Positions 11,441 through 59,456 of a DNA stretch of 64,000 nt are shown here, one piece after another (position 1 is the stretch's first letter; each line of letters opens with the position of its first letter). This stretch comes from Yamagishiella unicocca (lineage: Eukaryota > Chlorophyta > Chlorophyceae > Chlamydomonadales > Volvocaceae): positions 150,521-214,520 of the forward strand of contig BDSL01000138.1 in NCBI GenBank assembly GCA_003116995.1, in the 5' to 3' direction. Below the pieces are notes generated by a model. It was not told the origin of the DNA and searched no databases. It worked only from the letters and a program-made list of their open reading frames with translations. A program made the position numbers and the translations under genes.

Positions 11441-13033
11441 CACAGTAGACTGGTGATGCCGGTTTCCTCCCAGGGTATACCCCACGTTCTACCTGGGATA
11501 GAGGAAGTGGGGTCCATGCTCACCGTACGGTTGGGGTGGCGGTTGGGCGGGGGGGAGCCGCTGGCGCTGCGGGATACGACTGTTCGGGTTGGGACGGCTG
11601 TGCAATTGGTCGAGTTCGCGGACGCCCGGCGGGCCGCGCATGAGAAATTTGTGCGCGAAGCGCTTGGGGGTACCGGGCCTGTCCTGCCAGCGGCCCTGAA
11701 TGCCTTGCAGCAAGTGTTCCGGCGGCTCTGGTCTGGCATGAAGTGGGAGCCGGCCTATAAGGAGGGATGGTGGCGGTTGGCTGTAGATGGGATCCCCCTC
11801 CTCGGGAACTCTCATATGCGGACGGCAGCAGCAGCCCCTTGTGGGTGCGGTGTGCCGGCTGGAGAGTCTCCAGGGGCGGGTACCCCCCGCTTACACCACT
11901 TTTGGTTCTGCCCGGTGGCTCAAGCAGTGATTGCCCAACTCGAGACCCAGCTCGGTGCAGGGGTGACACGGGCGCAAGTTTGGTTGGTGCAAGCACCTAC
12001 CGGGGTACAGTCCTGCGTCTGGGATGTAGTAGTCCTGGCGGCTATTACTGCCATGGAGGTGGGGCGCCGGTTTATGGCCGCGGCCTTGAAAAGGGGGGGC
12101 TGGTGGTCCCCCTCTTACTCCGGGTAGTGGTCTTCTGGATCGTGCCATTCGCCGTGGGGTGGTGGAGTTTTGGGCCCTTTTGAGGGGCTTTGCTGCGCTG
12201 GGGCTTCCCAAGAAAGGCTGGGATGCAGTGGGGCCTCGGCATCCTTTCTTGCGGGTTGTCGCCAATCGCCTTATGTGCGGGGGACCGGCGGAGGTACTGG
12301 TGGATTCCTGATCGGCTCGGGTTGTCTTGGGGAGCGGGGTTTCCCGTGCTTCATACTTTCTGGCTATATAGGCGTGTTGAGCCCTGCTAGGGGTCCGTGC
12401 CTTATGGGATGAGAGGTGGCTGGTTCCGATGTTTGCATCGTTGCGGCGCTTCACTGGTTCGTCGGGTGCTGGGCTGTTAGGTTGGTTGGTGGCCGGTTCC
12501 TGATAGGGGAGTGTTGTATCACGTTCTGGACTTAACGTGATGGCGACAATGATCTGTTTCCCGCCAATTCTGCCTGTTCGACGTACACTACTGACGTACG
12601 TCTCTGAAGGCTGTAACTCTGCCGTTACAGACTGGAACTGTGAATCTGTCACAGTTGGGAATCTGTCCTGGGCTGACTGTTTCTGCATCGTTTGGAGAGC
12701 TGGGTCTAACGGTCTGTCGTTACCCACTGAGCCGGCTGTCGTACTGCTACAGCACTGTCAGTGTTCTTAAACACTTGCTGTTTCTCTAAACGGTAGTTCT
12801 GACTGCCCCCAGCAGTTGGACTTTAGCCTACAACAAGCTGGTATCGAGCCTCTAGTGCAAATTCCCCTGGGGTGCTGGCTGCTGCTCTGTATGCCTACGG
12901 CCTGTCAACTTGGTGTTCTGGTGGTTTGCCTTTGTTTCGGTGCATGTCGGTATTTGTTTCCTCCGTCTTTTTCAGTGTCAGGCGATGCGCCCGATGGTTC
13001 TACCTCTTGGTCTGGAACCCACTGTAACTGGAC
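11441..13033 (+). mobile_element. LINE fragment: C-terminal zinc-binding part of ORF2 plus 3' UTR
   Basis: An open frame at 11453-12127 encodes a piece with CGC...HHFWFCPVA, the Cys/His pattern of the zinc-binding domain that follows the reverse transcriptase in L1-type ORF2. Coding continues in other frames to about 12420, showing frameshift decay. The region 12450-13033 is the 3' UTR; parts recur at 10484-10575, 58680-58817 (inverted) and 59457-59767. The 5' end is missing. The copy abuts an oppositely oriented RT fragment at 13034. Confidence 0.8.
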
Positions 13034-14398
13034 GCAGCCAAGAAGTCCCGAAGAGCATCGCGAGCCGTCAGAACATCACCCAACGTCTTAATGGTCCAGC
13101 ACCCCACTAGTTCTGGGTGCAAGTATTCCAAGCCCGGCCTCCTGCCGACCCCCATCTGCCCAGACTGGCAGGCTGGGAGGAGCGGGTTGCCCCAAATCGG
13201 CACGTTCACACACCATGGGCCTGGCACCAGCGGCTCGCTACCGATGTCTTGTACCGGGGGCAAGGCCGCGAGCGCCGTGATCACCCGTCGGATATCAGCC
13301 GGCATCTCGTCCGCCCCCATCCACGGGCCCCTGCCTTGTGCTGTAAGCAGGTTCAGAAGTCCGAACGCCGGATGCACCCCCCTCAGGTACGTGTTAAGGC
13401 AAATGACCCATGGAGGCCGGCGCTCCCGGTGGCCCGCCATTGCCAGTACAAACCGCAGGGCCCAACCAGCCCAGCGCGCCCGTACGTGCTCCTTGAGGGC
13501 AATGGCCCCAAAGCCCCCGAGGGATGGGTGCCCGACCAGCAGCCGCTGTGGGACACCTGTTGCTCGTCGCTCCCTAGCATCTGGGGCTAAATCCCGGTCA
13601 ATGAGCTTCGCCGCCACCCGCTCTAACCCTTCCACCACGGTGTCTGGGGGTAGGCCCCCATGCTCCATGTGCCAGGTGACACGGTGCATCCCATATGCTG
13701 CGGCTGCTGTCGCCCTGCCAAACGTGGACAGGCGTAACCCCGCAATCCGCGAGAACCTACTTAATACCTTGTCCCTTTGTGACTCCCAGTCCAACATTGG
13801 GGACCCCCCTACGTCGGTAAACGGCAGATTCAGCGCCGTGGCCGAAGCTACGACCTTCAACCCTCCCATGTCATGCGGGCTAGGTCCCTCGACGCCAATT
13901 GACAATATCTCAACCTTATCCAGGTTCAGCCGTTGCCCAGAGGCTTGAGCGTATACCTCCATGGACGCCAGGAAAGCCGGCACTTCCGCTTGCCCCTCCA
14001 ACAGCACCTGAGTGTCGTCGGCAAACTGCACCGCGGTGGTTATGGGGCCCGCCCCTACTGCAAGCCGGATGCCAACCCCCCGTTGCTGTAACCAGCAAAG
14101 GAGGGCTTGGGCTACAAACAAATACAACAGAGATGCTAGCGGGCATCCTTGCCGTACCCCCGCCTCTATAGGTACCAGGCGGGACTTGTGCCCGTTGACC
14201 ACTGCCAACGACCTGGTGTCGGTCAGCAAGATCGGTGTCCAGGACATCAAACCCGCCCCCGCCCCCATCGCCTCATACAGGAAGCATCTGTCCACAGAAT
14301 CGTATGCTTTGGCAATATCCAGGAACGCCAGTACACACGACCGACCTTGTTGTGCCATGAGGTGGGGAATCTGCCGCAGGAACAGAACATTGGCTGGG
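13034..14398 (-). mobile_element. LINE reverse transcriptase fragment (5'- and 3'-truncated)
   Basis: One long minus-strand frame encodes the RT palm of an L1-type element. It contains NVLFLRQI, then LDIAKAYDSVDR (motif A Asp), then GVRQGCPLASLLY (motif B) and QFADDTQVLL (motif C, FADD in place of YADD). The catalytic Asp residues and frame are intact across about 450 codons, which argues for a recent copy. The endonuclease domain and 5' half are absent upstream of 14398. The 3' part stops at 13034 in mid-ORF where the plus-strand copy begins. The ATG at 14358 is an internal Met, not a true start. Confidence 0.9.
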
Positions 14399-14802
14399 TG
14401 TTACTGGTGTGTAAACTACCATGGTGGTGTATTCACCTTTCCAGGAGGTGTCACGCCACCTCGTGTGCTTGCCATATCATGTGGTGAACGCGCTATTTTA
14501 GGCTTTTCGAGTACTGTTTGTGAGTACCGGGGGTTCGGCTGCGCTAGGCGTGACCTGGGCGGGCTTCCCTGGAGCGTTGAGACTGGCGATAAGGCCAGCA
14601 TCAGTGCGAGACCAGTTATCTGCGTCTCGCACTGGGAAAGACTACGCCAGTGAGCCACGTCAGCTGTACAGCACCACGTTAGTTGGCGTGACAGAGGCGT
14701 CCCACCCCAGATATTTTACAGAACTACGGCCGGTGTACTGCTTATCTCGGTCGGCCAGTTTGTTCTTCTTCCTGAGTCTCTTTCAGTATCTCCAGTACGC
14801 AA
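14399..14802. other. No gene recognised
   Basis: A stretch between the LINE RT fragment and the inverted-repeat block. No open frame with splice support and no repeat shared with the rest of the window was found. Confidence 0.4.
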
Positions 14803-15345
14803 GGGTACCATCCCAATGGCGCCAGGCATGCCTGGCGCAATTACCATTTGAGTCCCCCCAGGCATGCCTAGGCATGCCTGGCCATTTGCTTTCTGCACGG
14901 GATGCCACAGCCCACTTTACGCTGTATTTCCTATTACGAAATGCGCCTACAGGCAAAGGCCATAGCCCCGCCCCTGAGAACGGGCAAATTAGGCCTGGGC
15001 CTGTATGTCCATCTCAATGGGCACAGGCATGCCTGAGCATGCCTAGGCATGTGACATCGCGCACGGGGGCTGCATGCACCTGCTACAAAGCTGCACCTGC
15101 GTCTGTGCCTACCAATGTAACCAGGGAGCCTTTGAAGGGTTTCCGAAAAGGCATGGGCACGCCTGCACGTTTTCTGGGGAGCGTGCCTGGGCCCATCCAT
15201 TTCAATGGCCACAGGTGTGCCTGGGCATGCCTACACGTGTACGACCACGCCTGGGGGCTGCACGCACCTGGTTCTGCGCCTGCCGGAGCGACCAGGGAGC
15301 CTTTGAAGGCTTCGCATGGGTGCAGAGCAGGTGGTAGCTGTGTGG
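14803..15345 (+). repeat. Left inverted-repeat arm (AGGCATGCCT subunits)
   Basis: Contains palindromic AGGCATGCCT motifs and about two subunits of a roughly 170-bp repeat ending in gcctgggggctg...gagcctttgaagg. It is the inverted partner of 18990-19856. Confidence 0.75.
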
Positions 15346-15403
15346 GAGCCAGAAAGGATCGTGTTTTGGTGCTATGCACTTCTTTGCTGTATGTCACAGG
15401 GGA

Positions 15404-15408
15404 TTACA
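15404..15408 (-). terminator. Candidate poly(A) signal TGTAA for the folded-back gene
   Basis: TTACA on the plus strand reads TGTAA on the minus strand, about 450 bp past the last recognisable exon of the minus-strand gene. TGTAA is the usual volvocine poly(A) signal. A single 5-mer is weak evidence. Confidence 0.35.
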
Positions 15409-15804
15409 GACTGAACATGTTACCAACTTGTCACCCCCTGATTTTGCCTACCACTCCGCTTGCTTAGTTAGTAACACAAGGATGTGGTGAACTTTTTCAT
15501 ATGCACTACAAAGGATTCCTCACTTAAACCAGTGGAAGCCTGCAGGCCAAGACTGCTCACTCGACCCCTTCAGGTGAAATAACAGTTACTACAACCAAGG
15601 GTTTCAATCCATGCCAGCAGTCATTGGCCAACTCATCAGGCCCACCTTCACGAACAAAACCAGCACGGCACAAATGCAGATCACTCCAACTCACAAGGCC
15701 ACCAGACACTGAGTCGTGACAAAGACAGCATGACATCATCAAACATCACCAACATTGTGTTTAAGCAAGAATGTCATGACCAGCAGCATTTAGCAGCGCA
15801 AATA

Positions 15805-16145
15805 TAACCTGATTGGAACGCCATTACTTGCAGGAACAGCTGCTCCCCCTGCTCCACGTCATTTTTGAAGCTGCCTTGAGCCGCAAGCACGACGGCTGCA
15901 ATCCTGACATGGTGCTGGGTCGGCTACGGGGGCCCGTAGCCGACCCAGCACCATGTCAGGATTGCAGCCCTCGTGCTTACGGCTCAAGGCAGCTTCGAAT
16001 AGGACCCCCCGTAGCCGACCCAGCACCATGTCAGGATTGCAGCCCTCGTGCTTGCGGCTCAAGGCAGCTTCGAATAGGACGTGAAGCAGGGGGGGCAGCT
16101 GTTCCTGCAAAAAAAGGCATTCCAATCAGGTTATATTCGCATCAA
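15805..16145. repeat. Exon-derived fold-back 1
   Basis: The left arm 15805-15930 and the right arms 15933-16006 and 16010-16145 are reverse complements around a 2-nt centre (CGGCTACGGG-gg-CCCGTAGCCG). The right side carries the arm twice in tandem. On the minus strand the arm is the exon EQLPPLLHVLFEAALSRKH...GRLR with its 3' splice site (ttttttgcag). The arms differ at a handful of bases, so the event is not brand new. Confidence 0.85.
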
Positions 16146-16803
16146 TGGCAATATCCGCTAGCGTGGTGATCAAGTGCTCGCCTAAGCTTACCTTGTTTGC
16201 GCTGCTTGATGGCAGGAAACGAACGCCCAGAGGCCACCATGATGGGGCCTTGCGGGGTCTCACCGCTGAAGCCAAGCTGCGCTGCGCCTTCGAGCTGAAC
16301 AGTTCTAGCTCGGCGATGATACCTGTGGTAGGGTTCACATCGCGAAGACAGTCTTAATCAAACCACACCCTTACACCCTTTCGGTTCACAGTAACACCGG
16401 GAACACGCCATGGCCATGGCCTTCAGTGTAAAAGGTAGCACAGTGTGGAACATTGCAGAGGTTTGGCATTTTACTCACTCTGAACTCTAGGAACCCCGCG
16501 CATGCTTGGTGACCGTGATGCATAGGGAGAGCCTGCGGCGGCCTTTTCCCTTGAAGGGCCCAGTCCATCGCCTGTGGGCAAGTGGAGGAGACGTAGGGTG
16601 CGTGATAGATGATACGTGATTCGTACAACAGGCACGAGGTAGGGTGCGTGATGCATGGCATGATATGTGATACGTACACCAGACAATAGGCAGGGTGCGT
16701 GATGCGTGATGTCAATATGTACAACAGACGCTTGAAAGCCAGCAGGCAAGACTAGCAATACATGATGATAGTGAACAAGCGTCTATGTTTAGAGCCTAGG
16801 CGC

Positions 16804-16942
16804 CCCTGACGGGGCCACCATTGCGGCATCAGATCAGCCAGGGCCGTCATCACCCTGTGAGTTGTTGACAAGGCTTGTCAACAACTCACAGGGTGATGAC
16901 GGCCCTGGCTGATCTGATGCCGCAATGGTGGCCCCGTCAGGG
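16804..16942. repeat. Perfect 69-bp palindrome (exon fold-back 2)
   Basis: 16804-16872 is the exact reverse complement of 16874-16942 with a single-base centre at 16873. The right arm encodes the end of exon 3 on the minus strand (PDGATIAASDQPG...); the left arm is its mirror image. Confidence 0.9.
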
Positions 16943-17552
16943 TGTTCACGAGGCTTGTTGGCATCTTGTGCTGTGCGGGCCCCTGAACAGCCAGGATGCG
17001 CCCGCGTGGACGCGCAAAGCACCATGTTGACGGCTGATTGAAGTGACTGTGCCTCAAGCAGCAGTGACGGCGGCAGCGGATGGGACTCATCCACCACAAT
17101 GACCTTGGTGCCATGCATGCGCTCACAGTAACACCGGGAACACGCCATGGCCATGGCCATGGCCATGGCCTTCAGTGTAAAAGGTAGCACAGTGTGGAAC
17201 ATTGCAGAGGTTTGGCATTTTACTCACTCTGAACTCTAGGAACCCCGCGCATGCTTGGTGACCGTGATGCATAGGGAGAGCCTGCGGCGGCCTTTTCCCT
17301 TGAAGGGCCCAGTCCATCGCCTGTGGGCAAGTGGAGGAGACGTAGGGTGCGTGATAGATGATACGTGATTCGTACAACAGGCACGAGGTAGGGTGCGTGA
17401 TGCATGGCATGATATGTGATACGTACACCAGACAATAGGCAGGGTGCGTGATGCGTGATGTCAATATGTACAACAGACGCTTGAAAGCCAGCAGGCAAGA
17501 CTAGCAATACATGATGATAGTGAACAAGCGTCTATGTTTAGAGCCTAGGCGC

Positions 17553-17691
17553 CCCTGACGGGGCCACCATTGCGGCATCAGATCAGCCAGGACCGTCATC
17601 ACCCTGTGAGTTGTTGACAAGGCTTGTCAACAACTCACAGGGTGATGACGGCCCTGGCTGATCTGATGCCGCAATGGTGGCCCCGTCAGGG
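17553..17691. repeat. 69-bp palindrome (exon fold-back 3)
   Basis: Second copy of the 16804-16942 palindrome, 749 bp further on. One mismatch (gga in place of ggg in the left arm) distinguishes it. Confidence 0.9.
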
Positions 17692-18989
17692 TGTTCACGA
17701 GGCTTGTTGGCATCTTGTGCTGTGCGGGCCCCTGAACAGCCAGGATGCGCCCGCGTGGACGCGCAAAGCACCATGTTGACGGCTGATTGAAGTGACTGTG
17801 CCTCAAGCAGCAGTGACGGCGGCAGCGGATGGGACTCATCCACCACAATGACCTTGGTGCCATGCATGCGCTCCTTCACTTCGTGGCTGGAGTATCCGTA
17901 CAGCGACTTAGACTGCCAGTCGTCAGCCACGTAGTGCAAGATGGACACCGCGCATCGCTCTTTCCCGGCCATCCTGCTGAGCACACCTACAGGCCCCGGT
18001 GCCGTAAGGAAACTGTGCTCGAGCCGTGCCGCACGCGCCAGCGCGTTTAAGCCGGGGATGCGACCTTTGCCGCCCGCAAGTCTCTGACCGTTTAGAGCAC
18101 GCGCCACTGGGGGAAGGGCACGCACGCGTTTGTGTGTGGGGGGGACCATGATAACATTAAGTTCACCCGCACGTATCTAACAAAATACCAAATTGGCGTT
18201 AGCATCGCACACGAAATCTTACTTTGCTCTTGCTGAGCTGCGTTCCGAGCGGCCTCCATGGCTGCAGCAAAGTCTTCCATGCAAGGATCGTCTTGTGCGC
18301 ATCCAGCCTTTGGAGTGGACGACGCCAGTCGCGTCAACCGGGCGTCTCCATTTGTTTTATGATCACGAGTTCCTGCGATACCAGTTACTGAATTGATAAC
18401 ATCGCTGCTGTCCTCGACAATTGTAAGTGAGGAAACGCATACCTCGTCGACGCGTTTGCAACTCGTCCCCATCGGCTTCTGCCGCGGACTCGTCCACCAC
18501 CTTGTCCTCGAACTCCTCGGTCTCAGACGAATTCGAATCGTCTGCGTCCGTTTGTGAGCCTTCGGACGTTTCTGACTTTGCTGCCCAAGGCTCTGCGTAG
18601 GATAGCCTTTTTATGATGCGCCCCGCTCTGGTTGTGGTTTGATCGGCCGTCAATCCCTCCATTTTTAAGATTGGGTCTGGCCAGAGCAATCCAATGGTAG
18701 ATTGAGAGCAATGAGTCGGACGCTCCTTGCCTCCCTTGTTTAGCAGGCTTCTACAACATGTCTGAATACATCCGTAAGTTAATCTCGCCACGAAAACTTG
18801 TCGACCTGAAAAAGCGTTCTGTGTTCAAACAAGGACTCTACTTAGATTTCACTTTTGACCGCCGTACTAGGACAGCCCTGCAAAATGAAAGACTTGTCGT
18901 TGCTTGCTTTTGATATATCAATGCACCCTTACATTAGGTATTATCATAACTTCCATTTCCAGCATGCATGGAGTTTGGTATGTGAGCCG

Positions 18990-19856
18990 TTGGAGCCGTT
19001 GGCGCCATTGGAATGGACATGCCCAGGCACGCTCCTCATGAAAACGCCCATACCCACTAGAGGCTCCTTTAGAGGCTCCCTGGTAGCTCCAGCAGGCACA
19101 GAACCAGGTGCATGCAGCCCCCAGGCGCGTTCGTACATGTGTAGGCATGGCCAGGCATGCCCAGGCACGCCTGGGGCCATTGGAACGGAGAGGCCCGGGC
19201 AAGCTCGCAAGAAAACGCCCATACCCACTCCAGGGTCCTTCACAGGCGCCTAGGTAGCTCGAACAGGAACAGAACCAGGTGCCTGCAGTCCCCCAGGCGC
19301 GTTCGTACACGTGTAGGCATGGCCAGGCATGCCCAGGCACGCCTGGGGCCATTGGAACGGACAGGCCCAAAACAACACCAATACATACCCCATCGAGGCT
19401 CCATGACAGCTCTGACAGATACAGAACCAGGTGCATGCAGCCCCCAGGCGCGTTCGTACATGTGTAGACATGCCCAGGCATGCCTGTGCCCATTGGGATT
19501 GACAGGCCCAGGCACGACGCGAGAAAACGCCCATACCTTGAGAAATCACTTTAGAGGCACCCTGGTATATCCGACTGGCCCAGTGCCAAGTTGATGAACC
19601 CCCCGGGCGCGATGTCATATGCCTAGGCATGCTCAGGCATGCCTGTGCCCATTGAGATGGACAGGCCCAGGCCTAACTTGCCCGTTCTGGGGGGCGCGGC
19701 TATGACCTTTGCCTGTAGGCGTATTTCGTAATAAGAAGATACAACACAAAGTGGGCTGTGGCATGCCGTGCAGAAAGCAAGTTGTCAGGCATGCCTGGGC
19801 ATGCCTGGGAGGACTCAATGCGCCAGGCATGCCTGGCGCCATTGGGATGGTACCAT
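18990..19856 (-). repeat. Right inverted-repeat arm with about 170-bp subunits
   Basis: About four tandem subunits (near 19015, 19190, 19370, 19510) share CCCCCAGGCGCGTTCGTACA, GTGTAGGCATGGCCAGGCAT and AAAACGCCCATACC. The outer 230 bp (19630-19856) match 14803-15060 in reverse orientation, including the box TTGCTTTCTGCACGG. Confidence 0.8.
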
Positions 19857-20237
19857 TCATACACTACATGTATACCTGCCTATCCAGCTACAGGAACGGC
19901 CATTTTCTTGTCATGTTAGATATTGCTGCTGATCTCAAACTTCTACTGATGATTATAAATCTTTTCGAGCCCATAGTAACAAGGTTTTGGCGAGAAATGC
20001 CGGTTAAAATTCTGGTCGGTTAGAATTCCGGCCGGTTAAAATTCCAAAGTGTGTCCAACAACAGCACATTCCGTACACATGACAATGTCACAGCCATTGT
20101 CAGGGGCGCCGCCGGGTGTCACAGCCACTCTTAGAGGCACCACCAGACGTCACAGCCATTGTCAGGCAGGGGCACCGCCAGATGCTGCTCAGTTTGCCAA
20201 CCATCTCCCTGGCGTTCCATTCCGCCGCACCCGCCAC
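19857..20237. other. 3' flank of holocytochrome c synthase gene, short repeats
   Basis: Contains three gccggttaaaattc-type units (19990-20045) and a small tandem of CACAGCCATTGTCAG blocks (20085-20185). No gene was recognised. A minus-strand TGTAA was not found. Confidence 0.45.
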
Positions 20238-23429: not shown

Positions 23430-26400
23430 CTACTCCGCAAATAGCTCGCGGCGTGCAGCATCACAAATCGACTTACTCGTGGCGTGGTAGTCGTCCCAGC
23501 AGGGCAGATTGTCGGTCGCCTCGTTGATCATGGCCACGATCAGCCGCACCAGGTTATTCTGAACGATCTGTGGTGGCGAGGGTAGGGCGGACGAGCGCGC
23601 TGGGTGGTGAGGATTGCTGAGCCAGATGCGGAAATTCGCCAGATGCGGAAATTCGCCAGACCGCCTGAGAAGAAAGGAACTACAAAAACATTGAGGGTTG
23701 CGCGGTTTTGTTTTTTGTTGGCCACTATTGTTTGATATCTACCTGAAGGCAAGGCTTACAGCACCGCAGCATGCGGAGGCCGGCGCTGTAGAGAGACACC
23801 CACACCCACGCACACGCGACACATTGCACCCCGCTACGCAAGGCGCGAGCAACGTGTGGCCCCCCACGCCACGCAGAGCGACGTCACGGGCGGCTCCGTA
23901 CCGGCGGCGGCATGGGCAGGTTGCGCGGAGGCGGCTTGACGCTGTACTCGCGCTTGTCAAAGGTGTACACGGCCAGCGTGCTGTTGTCCGTGATGTTGCC
24001 GTCCTTGTCGAAGCGGCAAGGGTAGGTGAGGTGCAGGAGGTAGAAGGGCCGCCCCTCGCTGTCCACCTCCTCCTTGTCGAACGGCGGGTGCGACAGCATG
24101 TTGGGGATCACCTGAGGCACAGGCACAGGCACAGGCGCGGATGGAGGGAGGGAGAGAGGCATGAGAGGAAACCCGTGGGCCTAGGAGGGGGAGCTCCAGG
24201 GGGGGTATGAGTGGGAACCCGTGGGCCGGAACTGAAGAGTAAAGCCGGTCAGGAAAAGTTTGGTTTACATGTCTAGGATTGCGAACTGGAGAAATTGGCT
24301 TTGGTAACTACGGAGTGAGGGAGGCTAGACGGACGCTGATGTGAGCTCACGGCACCCCGGATAGGGACACTTGAGGGCCAGATACCGTGGAGTAGTTGAG
24401 GCCCAGATACCGTGGAATATATTTGACGCTTAGCGGTGGATCAACACAAGGGGAGGACACGCACCGCACGTAGGAGACCCGCAAGCGCGTGGAAAGCACA
24501 CATGGCAGGCCGCAAGGGGTCAGATAGGTGACCCTTGGGTCCTTCCCTCCCTGCCAAATCCTGCCCGCCTGCTCTCCCTACCCCCCTTCCCACCCCACTG
24601 CGCCTCCGCTCCGTGCAACCGCCGCCGCCGCACCTTCATGTTGGCGTTCTGGCTGGCACGGTAGGTCGCCAGCGAGTATGCATACATCTCCAGCACCCAG
24701 TTCCACGCGTCGTGCGCCTCCTTGTCCTCATAGATCTCGATGGTGGTGTTGTACCAGATGGGGGCCAGCACCCGGAACTCCTCCACGCTCACGAAGGTGG
24801 GGCTATTGCCGATCTGCGGCACGCGGTGCACCTCCTCATCGGACACGTTGCCGATGAACTTGCGCACGACGCTGGGGTAGTTCCAGGGAACGATGTAGGA
24901 GAAGAGCGCAGCGCCCTGGCTCTCGCCGTTCATGAGGTTGGGCATGGGCCGCAGGAACAGGTGGTCGGTCTCGCACATGACGAAGTATTTCTGGTGGCGG
25001 CGTCGGTGTTGGCGGCGGGAGTGATGGTGGGAGTGACGATGGCGGCGTCGGTATTGGTGGCGGAAGTGATAGTGGGAGTGGCGATGGCGGCGGCGGAGGT
25101 CCAGCGAGAGATTAGACGGCGGCGGTGGCGCGATTATGGACGCGTGGAGCGAAGTGGGTGGGGAAGAGGGTAGGGCAAGCGGGGAGGGGCGCTGGTAAGA
25201 TGGGAGGAAATGGCTTGATGGGTTGGCATGAGGCGGAGGGGCGGCACGGTTAGGGCGGCGGTGGGAGCAGTGGCAGCGCATTCGCGTAGCCCCAAAACAG
25301 CCAAACACACATCATGTGTCCCTCCAACCCCATGTTCTTAGGTTGTACCTCCAGCCCCCTGTTTTTGGGTTGCACCTCCCAGTAAACACACGCACCCAGC
25401 GACCCCAGGAGCAGCATCCCTTCCCTACACCCGGCGCGGCCCGCTAGCCGGTCGTCGGGTTTTAGACCCGAAGCGGAGCAAGCAGGAGGGGGCACGAGGG
25501 TGTCTGTGCGGTGTGTGTGCCTTTTTAGGCCACACGCGGAACGTGCCATACGCCAGTCCCTCAGCTACCGTTTTGGGTTAATTTACTTTGGATATCACAA
25601 CGATTGACCCCCTAGGACATGGCAGCAATCCCGCGTATTTGAAAAAAGTCGCTTGCGTTCGGAACGCCCAGGCGTAACTGCGGTCTCCTCCCGCTTTCCA
25701 GCAACAGAGCGCAGTGGTGCCGAGCAGCGCTGGCGGTCATAGTCAGCTCCTGGGCTATACCCCTCCATTGCACGCGGCCTTTCCTGGCTTTTCAGCGCCC
25801 CTCTCCCCTCCATTTCCCCTTCCCCCCGCCCCGGCTTGCATGCACCCCACAACCAATGGATGCAGCTCGGTACCTAGCCGCACAGTTTGACCGCACGACA
25901 TGATATGCTCGGGGGGGAGGTGTACGGCAACCACTCCGGCACACGTAGCGGGGGGGGAGAGGTGTATGGCAACCACTCCAGCACACGTAGCGGGGGGCGG
26001 GAGAGGTGTACGGCAACCACTCCAGCACACGTAGCGGGGGGGGGGGCCGAGGTGTATGGCAACCACTCCAGCACACGTAGCGGGGGGGGGGAGAGGTGTA
26101 TGGCAACCACTCCAGCACACGTAGCGGGGGGAGGGCGAGGTGTATGGCAACCACTCCAGCACACGTAGCGGGGGGGGAGAGGTGTATGGCAACCACTCCA
26201 GCACACGTAGCGGGTGATCGCGGGGGAGGGGGGTCGATGCTTGCAGCGATGTGGGTATGCTGCCCTGCCGGCGGGCCGGTGCCCGACCCAATTGCCCTGC
26301 ACGTGGAGCTGCCCTGCACGCCTCCACGTGTGCCATACATGCGCCTCACCTCCGGGATGCTGACTTTATTGAGCCACTCCATGAACGCGTACGGCCTGTT

Positions 26401-26952
26401 GAGTACGATGTACGTCGTGTTCTTGGAGACGGAAGGGGGCAGCGGGTCCACCACCACGGTCGGAACCTCGTCCATAAGGTCGTCCGCTTTGCCGCTGTGG
26501 AGGATCCGCGTGAAACCACCCATGTCGCACGCCGCCTTGCGCAGGCATGCGTCGCGCTGCTTCTTGAACCAGTAGTAGTGGATGCGAGCCTGCCAGTGAT
26601 TGGAGAACCCCGCCGCGGTGGTGACCACGTGGTATGCCCGGGGGTTCTGCACTGTGCTGCCATACACCAATTTCGTGACGGTGACGGTCTCCGTCTTTAT
26701 CGGCACCTCCTTGCAAGGGCTCTCTGACGCGCCCTGCCCGTCGCCATTGAGCTTGACAAGGCTGCGGCTGCGGAATTGAGCAGTCAGGCCACTTGCACCG
26801 TTAGATCCGCCAGCAGCGTTGCTTCCAAAGCTGGCCTGGAAGACACTGTACGCAAAGAAGAGGAGCGCTGCGGCCACAAAGAACCCAGCGACGTGCTCAA
26901 GGCGGAATCCGCGTCTCCGTGCTGCAGGCTTAAGAGGACCGCCCGACTTCAT
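23430..26952 (-). CDS. HPAT: Hydroxyproline O-arabinosyltransferase (GT95 type)
   Basis: Four minus-strand exons, all phase 0: 26350-26952, 24634-24990, 23902-24111, 23430-23567 (435 residues). Residues about 20-42 form one membrane anchor after a basic N-terminus, as in a type II Golgi protein. Family blocks follow in order: NHWQARIHYYWFKKQRD, DMGGFTRILHSG, LMDEVPTVVVDPLP, VLNRPYAFMEWLN, TDHLFLRPMPNL, IGNSPTFVSVEE, WVLEMYAYSLA, FDKREYSVKPPPRNLPMPPP and a terminal NEATDNLPCW. The known enzyme adds the first arabinose to hydroxyproline in extensin-like wall proteins, and volvocine walls are rich in hydroxyproline glycoproteins. The last exon reads straight to a TAG at 23430; a GTAAGT near 23475 could alternatively be a donor. 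Intron 1 is 1.36 kb and repeat-rich. Confidence 0.93.
24170..24234. repeat. Dispersed CCCGTGGGCC...GGTATGAGTGG repeat
   Basis: A block reading cccgtgggcctaggagggggagctccagg and gggggtatgagtgg in HPAT intron 2. The same block recurs twice in tandem at 57003-57112 after the MCTP-type gene. Confidence 0.75.
25905..26216. repeat. About 45-bp minisatellite in HPAT intron 1
   Basis: Seven units of roughly 43-48 bp sharing GGCAACCACTCCAGCACACG followed by TAGCG, a poly-G run of variable length and GAGGTGTAT. Most length variation is in the G run. The rest of the intron (24991-25904) shows GT-rich trinucleotide repeats at 24998-25100 and nothing recognisable. Confidence 0.9.
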
Positions 26953-27184
26953 CTTGGCGCGTTGTCTCCCCTAGTAATCGTGATCGCGCTGCGAAAGCCG
27001 TCAGCGCACGTCAACGATGGTCCAGACTCGCGGCCGTTGCAACAGTGCGACAACGAGAGTTCCACTAGTGTGGCATTCTTATTATATGTATGCTGGTCAC
27101 GTGTGATATCTGTGTATGGGAAACGATGGAGCCGTCCGCACCAAATTAAGCAAGTAGCAATGGGTCGCTTCGCCGGTTTGCACA
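26953..27184. promoter_or_regulatory. 5' flank and presumed promoter of HPAT gene
   Basis: Only 232 bp separate the HPAT start codon from the target duplication of the 14-kb mobile block. The core promoter must lie here or has been displaced by the insertion. No TATA box could be assigned. Confidence 0.35.
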
Positions 27185-59085: not shown

Positions 59086-59244
59086 CGCCTCTCTCCGCCC
59101 CTCCTGCCCCCCAGCCCCCTACCTCTCCCCCCCCAACCCCTGGGTTGGGCCTCTGTTCTGGTAGTTTTTTGCTAGTCGCTGCGTTCTTGTCTGCGGGCGT
59201 CGGGACCTGCGTCTGGGCTTTCGCGTCCCCCATGGCGGCGCGGC

Positions 59245-59347
59245 AGCCGGTCATTACCAGAGGAGGTCCGCTGTCGTCCAGGAGAGGAGGCGCGGCTTCG
59301 GCCTCCTCTCCTGGACGACAGCGGACCTCCTCTGGTAATGACCGGCT
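59245..59347. repeat. 47-bp perfect inverted repeat (hairpin)
   Basis: 59245-59291 is the exact reverse complement of 59301-59347, with a 9-nt loop GCGGCTTCG. No other copy of the arm sequence exists in the window. A transcript would fold into an uninterrupted 47-bp stem, in the size range of volvocine microRNA precursors; a fold-back repair product is the alternative. Confidence 0.9.
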
Positions 59348-59456
59348 TCCTCACGCATCTGGTCGGTATTCGGGCGGGTCGGGACGGGGACTCCGACTAG
59401 GACTGGGACTGGGACCGGACCGCGATGGCCGCTCTCCCATAGCGCACCCACTCCCA

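Follow-up and report, generated by a model that had tools for sequence, protein, structure and literature searches.

For short-range template switch mutations a four-point model has been used in great apes (PMC7954356), and template switching has been put forward as a source of RNA hairpins, including microRNA stems (PMC8794818). In maize, Mu killer consists of a transposase gene duplicated in inverted orientation (PMC3440606). In Volvox carteri, which possesses genes for Dicer, Argonaute and RdRP, the terminal inverted repeats (TIRs) of the transposon Jordan are microRNA precursors (PMC5093975). Laccaria Kyakuja, from one branch of the Kyakuja-Dileera-Zisupton (KDZ) transposons, has a 7-bp target-site duplication, CA...TG ends and no TIRs (PMC12730594).

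In the 64,000-nucleotide stretch of Yamagishiella unicocca DNA that was analysed (the window), three palindromes lie inside one transposon copy. It is likely that these palindromes are mutational scars in a decayed, non-autonomous, KDZ-like TIR transposon copy, and no function is needed to account for them. Each palindrome has its own history. The features concerned are as follows (positions in the window).

14793-19861, no strand: non-autonomous TIR transposon copy of 5,069 bp, with all three palindromes inside; ends CAGTACGCAAGGG... and ...CCATTCATA; no recognised target-site duplication
14793-15312, plus strand: left terminal inverted repeat, made of units of ~172 bp
15313-15802, no strand: subterminal stretch common to the related locus L009 and to C61; the alignment with L009 ends at 15802
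15798-16140, minus strand: palindrome 3, with an inverted arm at 15798-15931 and direct arms at 15933-16005 and 16008-16140
16386-17873, no strand: tandem duplication with units of ~0.74 kb (~16386-17122 and 17123-17873), containing palindromes 1 and 2
16804-16942, minus strand: palindrome 1, with arms of 69 bp at 16804-16872 and 16874-16942, no mismatches and a 1-nt centre
17553-17691, minus strand: palindrome 2, the second copy of palindrome 1, with arms of 69 bp at 17553-17621 and 17623-17691 and one mismatch
17583-18176, minus strand: open frame of 197 codons with coding-like substitutions over 17681-18130 and a GTKVIVVDESH stretch
18363-18824, minus strand: upstream open frame of the same interior gene, common to the related loci L009, L010 and L011
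19000-19861, minus strand: right terminal inverted repeat, made of tandem units of ~172 bp and 79% identical to the left repeat

The preliminary description of this DNA had reported two perfect 69-bp stems with a 1-nt centre, carried by a 0.74-kb tandem duplication. Palindrome 1 is indeed perfect, but palindrome 2 has an A at 17592 where the palindrome 1 copy has a G. The tandem duplication is present as described. Its copies (16407-17124 and 17156-17873) differ at only 1 of 718 aligned positions and stand at an offset of 749, and at the other edge a 36-bp block is found at offset 737. The two offsets result from an unequal length of a GGCCAT hexamer run, so that the duplication contains one substitution and one length change. 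When folded as minus-strand RNA, palindromes 1 and 2 reached -153.4 and -150.7 kcal/mol, respectively; in neither case was any of 200 shuffles equally stable.

For palindrome 1 the related locus L009 on contig C27 was taken as the ancestral state, and L010 (C87) and L011 (C91) agree with it there in the alignment. Compared with L009, palindrome 1 contains a single changed block. After GAGTTGTTGACA, 68 nt stand in place of the sequence CCCTCG (six bases): first a 5-nt filler (AGCCT), then 63 nt that repeat the immediately preceding DNA as its exact reverse complement. Together with four bases of homology (AGGG) at the exit, the reverse copy comprises 67 nt. One local replacement by filler and reverse copy with homology at the exit is the signature of a template switch, and both in palindrome 1 and in palindrome 2 the local bases have given way to a reverse-complement copy of ancestral DNA from close by. 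A probable course of events is that a polymerase switched template during replication, or during repair of an excision gap, copied the just-made DNA in reverse and returned at the short homology, which would produce palindrome 1 in a single step. Its doubling into palindromes 1 and 2 would then be due to a subsequent tandem duplication of ~0.74 kb. The filler needs an extra step in this scheme. Possibly it was itself copied, since the 8-mer ACAAGCCT (ACA plus the filler) has one occurrence upstream.

What a simple template switch does not predict is the conservation of the source arm. In palindrome 2 this arm is covered by 78 nt without a difference from L009 (17625-17702). No longer identical run occurs in the 1,124 aligned bases, and divergence from L009 outside this run is ~10%. 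Outside it, segments of equal size that are as conserved numbered 0 of 989 in the comparison with L009, 10 of 988 with L011 and 67 of 841 with L010. An L009-like template used in gap repair, or constraint, could explain this finding. Because of this odd conservation our confidence in the scar reading is slightly lower.

Palindrome 3 is the stem with a doubled arm that had been noticed at 15.8-16.1 kb. Both the stem and the doubled arm are present, but the arms have diverged. Over their common part the direct arms show 1 difference in 73 positions; 11 differences in 132 positions separate the inverted arm from the long direct arm, and palindrome 3 is thus imperfect and older than palindromes 1 and 2. 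Its predicted minus-strand fold has -283.8 kcal/mol, and equally stable folds were found in 0 of 100 shuffles. The only outgroup for palindrome 3 is L010, with 10 of 132 differences to the inverted arm and 14 of 132 to the long direct arm. Since L010 is about as far from the arms as the arms are from each other, palindrome 3 may have been copied in reverse from another element; this sole outgroup, equidistant from both arms, gives a template switch here no polarity. Palindrome 3 sits where the transposase segment is missing in the window copy. It probably represents an older inverted duplication at the site of this loss, with a 75-bp tandem duplication afterwards. On contig C1 (C1:2208710-2208765; 1501-1556 of locus L031) 56 bp repeat the centre of palindrome 3 without a difference in otherwise unrelated surroundings, which looks like a templated insertion.

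Perfect palindromes can also come from chimeras, and palindromes 1 and 2 hardly differ from each other, so that an assembly or library fold-back artefact has to be considered. We regard this as very unlikely. The change at palindrome 1 loses six ancestral bases and gains filler, palindrome 2 has a substitution of its own, the arms of palindrome 3 show 11 differences in 132 positions, and the 56 bp of its centre are found identically on another contig.

The scar reading places the palindromes in a transposon. The arrays of ~172-bp units flank the palindrome block on both sides and are mutually inverted. When the left end was searched for in the own genome (133,378,104 bases in 1,415 contigs), 122 candidate matches were obtained, several per copy, 40 of which were scored; 20 genome places were taken for the comparison of transposon ends. 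The ends of the family read CAGTAAGCAAGGG... on one side and GAGTTATGAATGG... on the other. Target-site duplications were recognised in 8 of the 12 copies with a recognised end pair, the window copy and L009 counted, and in 7 cases they were exactly 7 bp long. A 7-bp direct repeat occurred by chance in 0.4-1.8% of 1000 random flanks per copy; L056, where the direct repeat has 7-8 bp and is displaced by ~20 bases from the ends, had no such random-flank control. Among the 12 copies, no target-site duplication was recognised at L052, L054, L059 and the window copy, and for this reason the ends of the window copy may have been rearranged. Eleven loci (L010 and L061-L070) that showed no left-right end pair in the piece compared stand outside this tally. 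The shared inverted ends and the mostly 7-bp target-site duplications identify the family as a TIR DNA transposon, and on these features the palindrome block is placed inside a multi-copy family of this kind.

Beside the transposon, an open frame for a reverse transcriptase (RVT_1, E 2.4e-16) is located at 13000-14400 on the minus strand, probably part of a LINE-type element. The window also contains two hydroxyproline O-arabinosyltransferase frames at 24523-26970 on the minus strand. Among named relatives, the nearest to the one at 25795-26970, a host frame, come from Volvox africanus (74% identity) and Pleodorina starrii (72%); Tetrabaena socialis reaches 69%, and 51% of the query is covered in each case.

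L009 is a longer sister copy on C27 (~2.69-9.31 kb of the locus), in which the interior gene is present in single copy, with a transposase frame beyond. The ~1.44 kb that contain this frame (L009 5303-6743) are absent from the window copy between 15802 and 16321. With this loss, and with no transposase match on C138, the window's contig, the window copy is non-autonomous. The L009 frame matched the Pfam KDZ model (PF18758) with an E value of 0.018 and 15.2 bits, which is under the cut-off of 26.6. Of nine relatives scanned with this model, four gave a match below the cut-off and five gave none. In the alignment of nine transposase sequences, i. e. L009 and 8 of the 12 relatives found, the motifs YDNxC, LxREP, HxxGHxxC and NSxxxEQ are invariant. 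The 7-bp target-site duplications fit the KDZ pattern of 7 bp in Kyakuja and 8 bp in Zisupton and Dileera; the CA...TG ends without TIRs described for Kyakuja in Laccaria are not found in the family. KDZ-like is the best filing for the family, albeit not a proven one. Our literature search found no Volvox paper on Kyakuja-Dileera-Zisupton elements, and the family may nonetheless be published.

The fold-backs had been described as mirror images of adjoining coding sequence on the minus strand. This view is supported by coding-like DNA beside the stems and by the single arm at three related loci. By codon position, the substitutions relative to L009 are 23/11/7 at 17681-18130, with the third position favoured (chi-square p 0.006), and 14/8/4 at 18401-18670 (p 0.054), these stretches having been picked after the counts were seen and p values being given for these two only. 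At 18131-18400 they are 9/12/5 and the third position is not in excess; perhaps there are introns in this part. Within the arm, differences are too scarce for a codon-position test. The GTKVIVVDESH stretch resembles the Walker B motif of a P-loop ATPase. With Pfam, the interior frame gave matches under the cut-off throughout (AAA_22, far under it, with E 0.11-0.23; DUF1525, E 0.16). It had no match in PDB up to E 10, no family in NCBIfam, and none among 143 protein database candidates at E up to 1.

In the genome, the exon matches C27, C87, C91 and the window locus, and one arm each is found at L009, L010 and L011. The C27 copy has both transposon ends, at C87 one end was found, and at C91 no transposon end was detected in the 9.9 kb examined. 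The same interior frame is open on C27 and on C91, and C91 is 99.4% identical to the C27 transposon copy over 1,344 bp. Adjoining the related copy on C87, L010 5747-6343 holds an open frame for a JmjC domain, inside which 91 bp are duplicated in tandem. The search for an intact parent gene, which the preliminary description had recommended, thus yielded single-arm relatives and no clear host gene. Since the exon matches are limited to these loci and C27 is a transposon copy, the host-gene reading was set aside; C91, where the transposon end is lacking in the piece examined, leaves a small doubt about this rejection. What had been described as one gene is the interior of a TIR transposon copy instead of an ordinary host gene.

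This bears directly on the first proposal for the locus, the birth of a microRNA or siRNA gene by inverted duplication of a target gene. For a microRNA gene derived from a host target it could be argued that the inverted arms come from coding-like DNA and that a relative without a transposon end exists on C91. Yet the exon occurs only at the four loci named, the C91 relative is nearly identical to a transposon copy, and the whole palindrome block lies inside a transposon. Rfam gave 26 matches with E up to 1 over 14700-19900, none of them at the gathering score. MicroRNA models on the palindromes made up 25 of these; several hit both strands, which could be expected of any hairpin. With arms that stem from a transposon interior and no clear host parent gene, a microRNA origin of this kind is extremely unlikely.

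A small-RNA function could also be directed against the transposon family itself. In this case the locus would be a nascent hairpin-siRNA locus similar to Mu killer: its transcripts would form double-stranded RNA, Dicer would cleave them, and the siRNAs would silence the sister copies. Both strands together give 140 distinct 21-mers for palindrome 1 and 182 for palindrome 2. In each palindrome, 94 of these have exact matches in L009 and L011, and 22 in L010. Owing to these exact matches, hypothetical siRNAs could act on the relatives, a mode of action that has been proposed for Mu killer in maize (PMC3440606). Further points in favour are the very stable hairpins predicted at all three palindromes, the source arm as the best conserved stretch relative to L009, and the precedents cited above, namely Mu killer and the small-RNA genes and Jordan precursors of Volvox carteri. 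However, stems of 69 bp are short in comparison with the ~1.3-kb duplication of Mu killer, and a template switch requires no function. Moreover, the Volvox transposons Gypsy5-I and Kangaroo give siRNAs, which the text consulted does not connect with palindromes like these. We therefore consider a Mu-killer-like locus unlikely. Unlikely, too, is the combination in which a decaying transposon with template-switch and tandem-duplicated hairpins would yield siRNAs against its own autonomous relatives. If this were true, a small algal Mu killer would have been caught at birth.

Returning to the scars, fold-backs recur in the repeats of this genome, as is indicated by the 56-bp copy on C1 and by a second repeat family. 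When 182,549 bases, a non-random selection largely around this transposon family, were scanned for further fold-backs (minimum arm length 50 bp, maximum spacer 12 nt), only two came up. One is an end pair in L068; at L068 318-466, as at L052 3938-4025, two transposon ends of the same kind stand head to head, 8-9 bases apart. The other, at 59238-59354, has 54-bp arms with 3 mismatches and a 9-nt spacer, and is inside a different repeat family. This family gave 855 candidates, 40 of which were scored. Five had a 109-bp reverse match across the palindrome (99-100% identity) and the other 35 a 50-bp reverse match to one arm only. Among these one-arm places, 32 were at 81-84% identity and 46-52 bases shorter than the query stretch; the remaining three covered only the second half of the query stretch, at 98-99%.

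Taken together, the locus is best explained as a real structure in a decayed transposon that arose by a known mutational process. It offers an algal before-and-after case, in which a perfect 69-bp hairpin, seemingly made in one local event, was then duplicated, and three relatives with a single arm are preserved in the same genome. Such hairpins are raw material for possible small-RNA loci. They also call for caution, as a fold-back of coding sequence alone does not make a new regulatory gene.

Among the known systems, short-range template switch mutations share with this locus the reverse-complement copy beside its source and the perfect stem (PMC8794818, PMC7954356). Here, however, the reverse copy is 63-67 nt long, compared with 59 bp for the largest pattern of the rRNA set in the available text, and the event involved a 5-nt filler, took place inside a transposon and was followed by a tandem duplication. 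With Kyakuja and Zisupton the family has in common the KDZ-like frame in the sister copy L009 and a 7-bp target-site duplication as in Laccaria Kyakuja (PMC12730594). It differs in a Pfam score under the cut-off, and also in its CA...TC ends and long tandem-unit TIRs, where the Laccaria element as described in that paper has CA...TG ends and no TIRs. With Mu killer of maize the window copy shares an internal deletion and the inverted duplication of a gene belonging to the transposon itself (PMC3440606). Its arms, however, measure 69-134 bp instead of ~1.3 kb, the duplicated gene is not the transposase, and silencing would be hypothetical here. Jordan of Volvox carteri is likewise a volvocine transposon that folds back on itself; in Jordan it is the TIRs that do so, and microRNAs from them were detected (PMC5093975), whereas the fold-backs here are interior palindromes whose hairpin RNAs are predicted.
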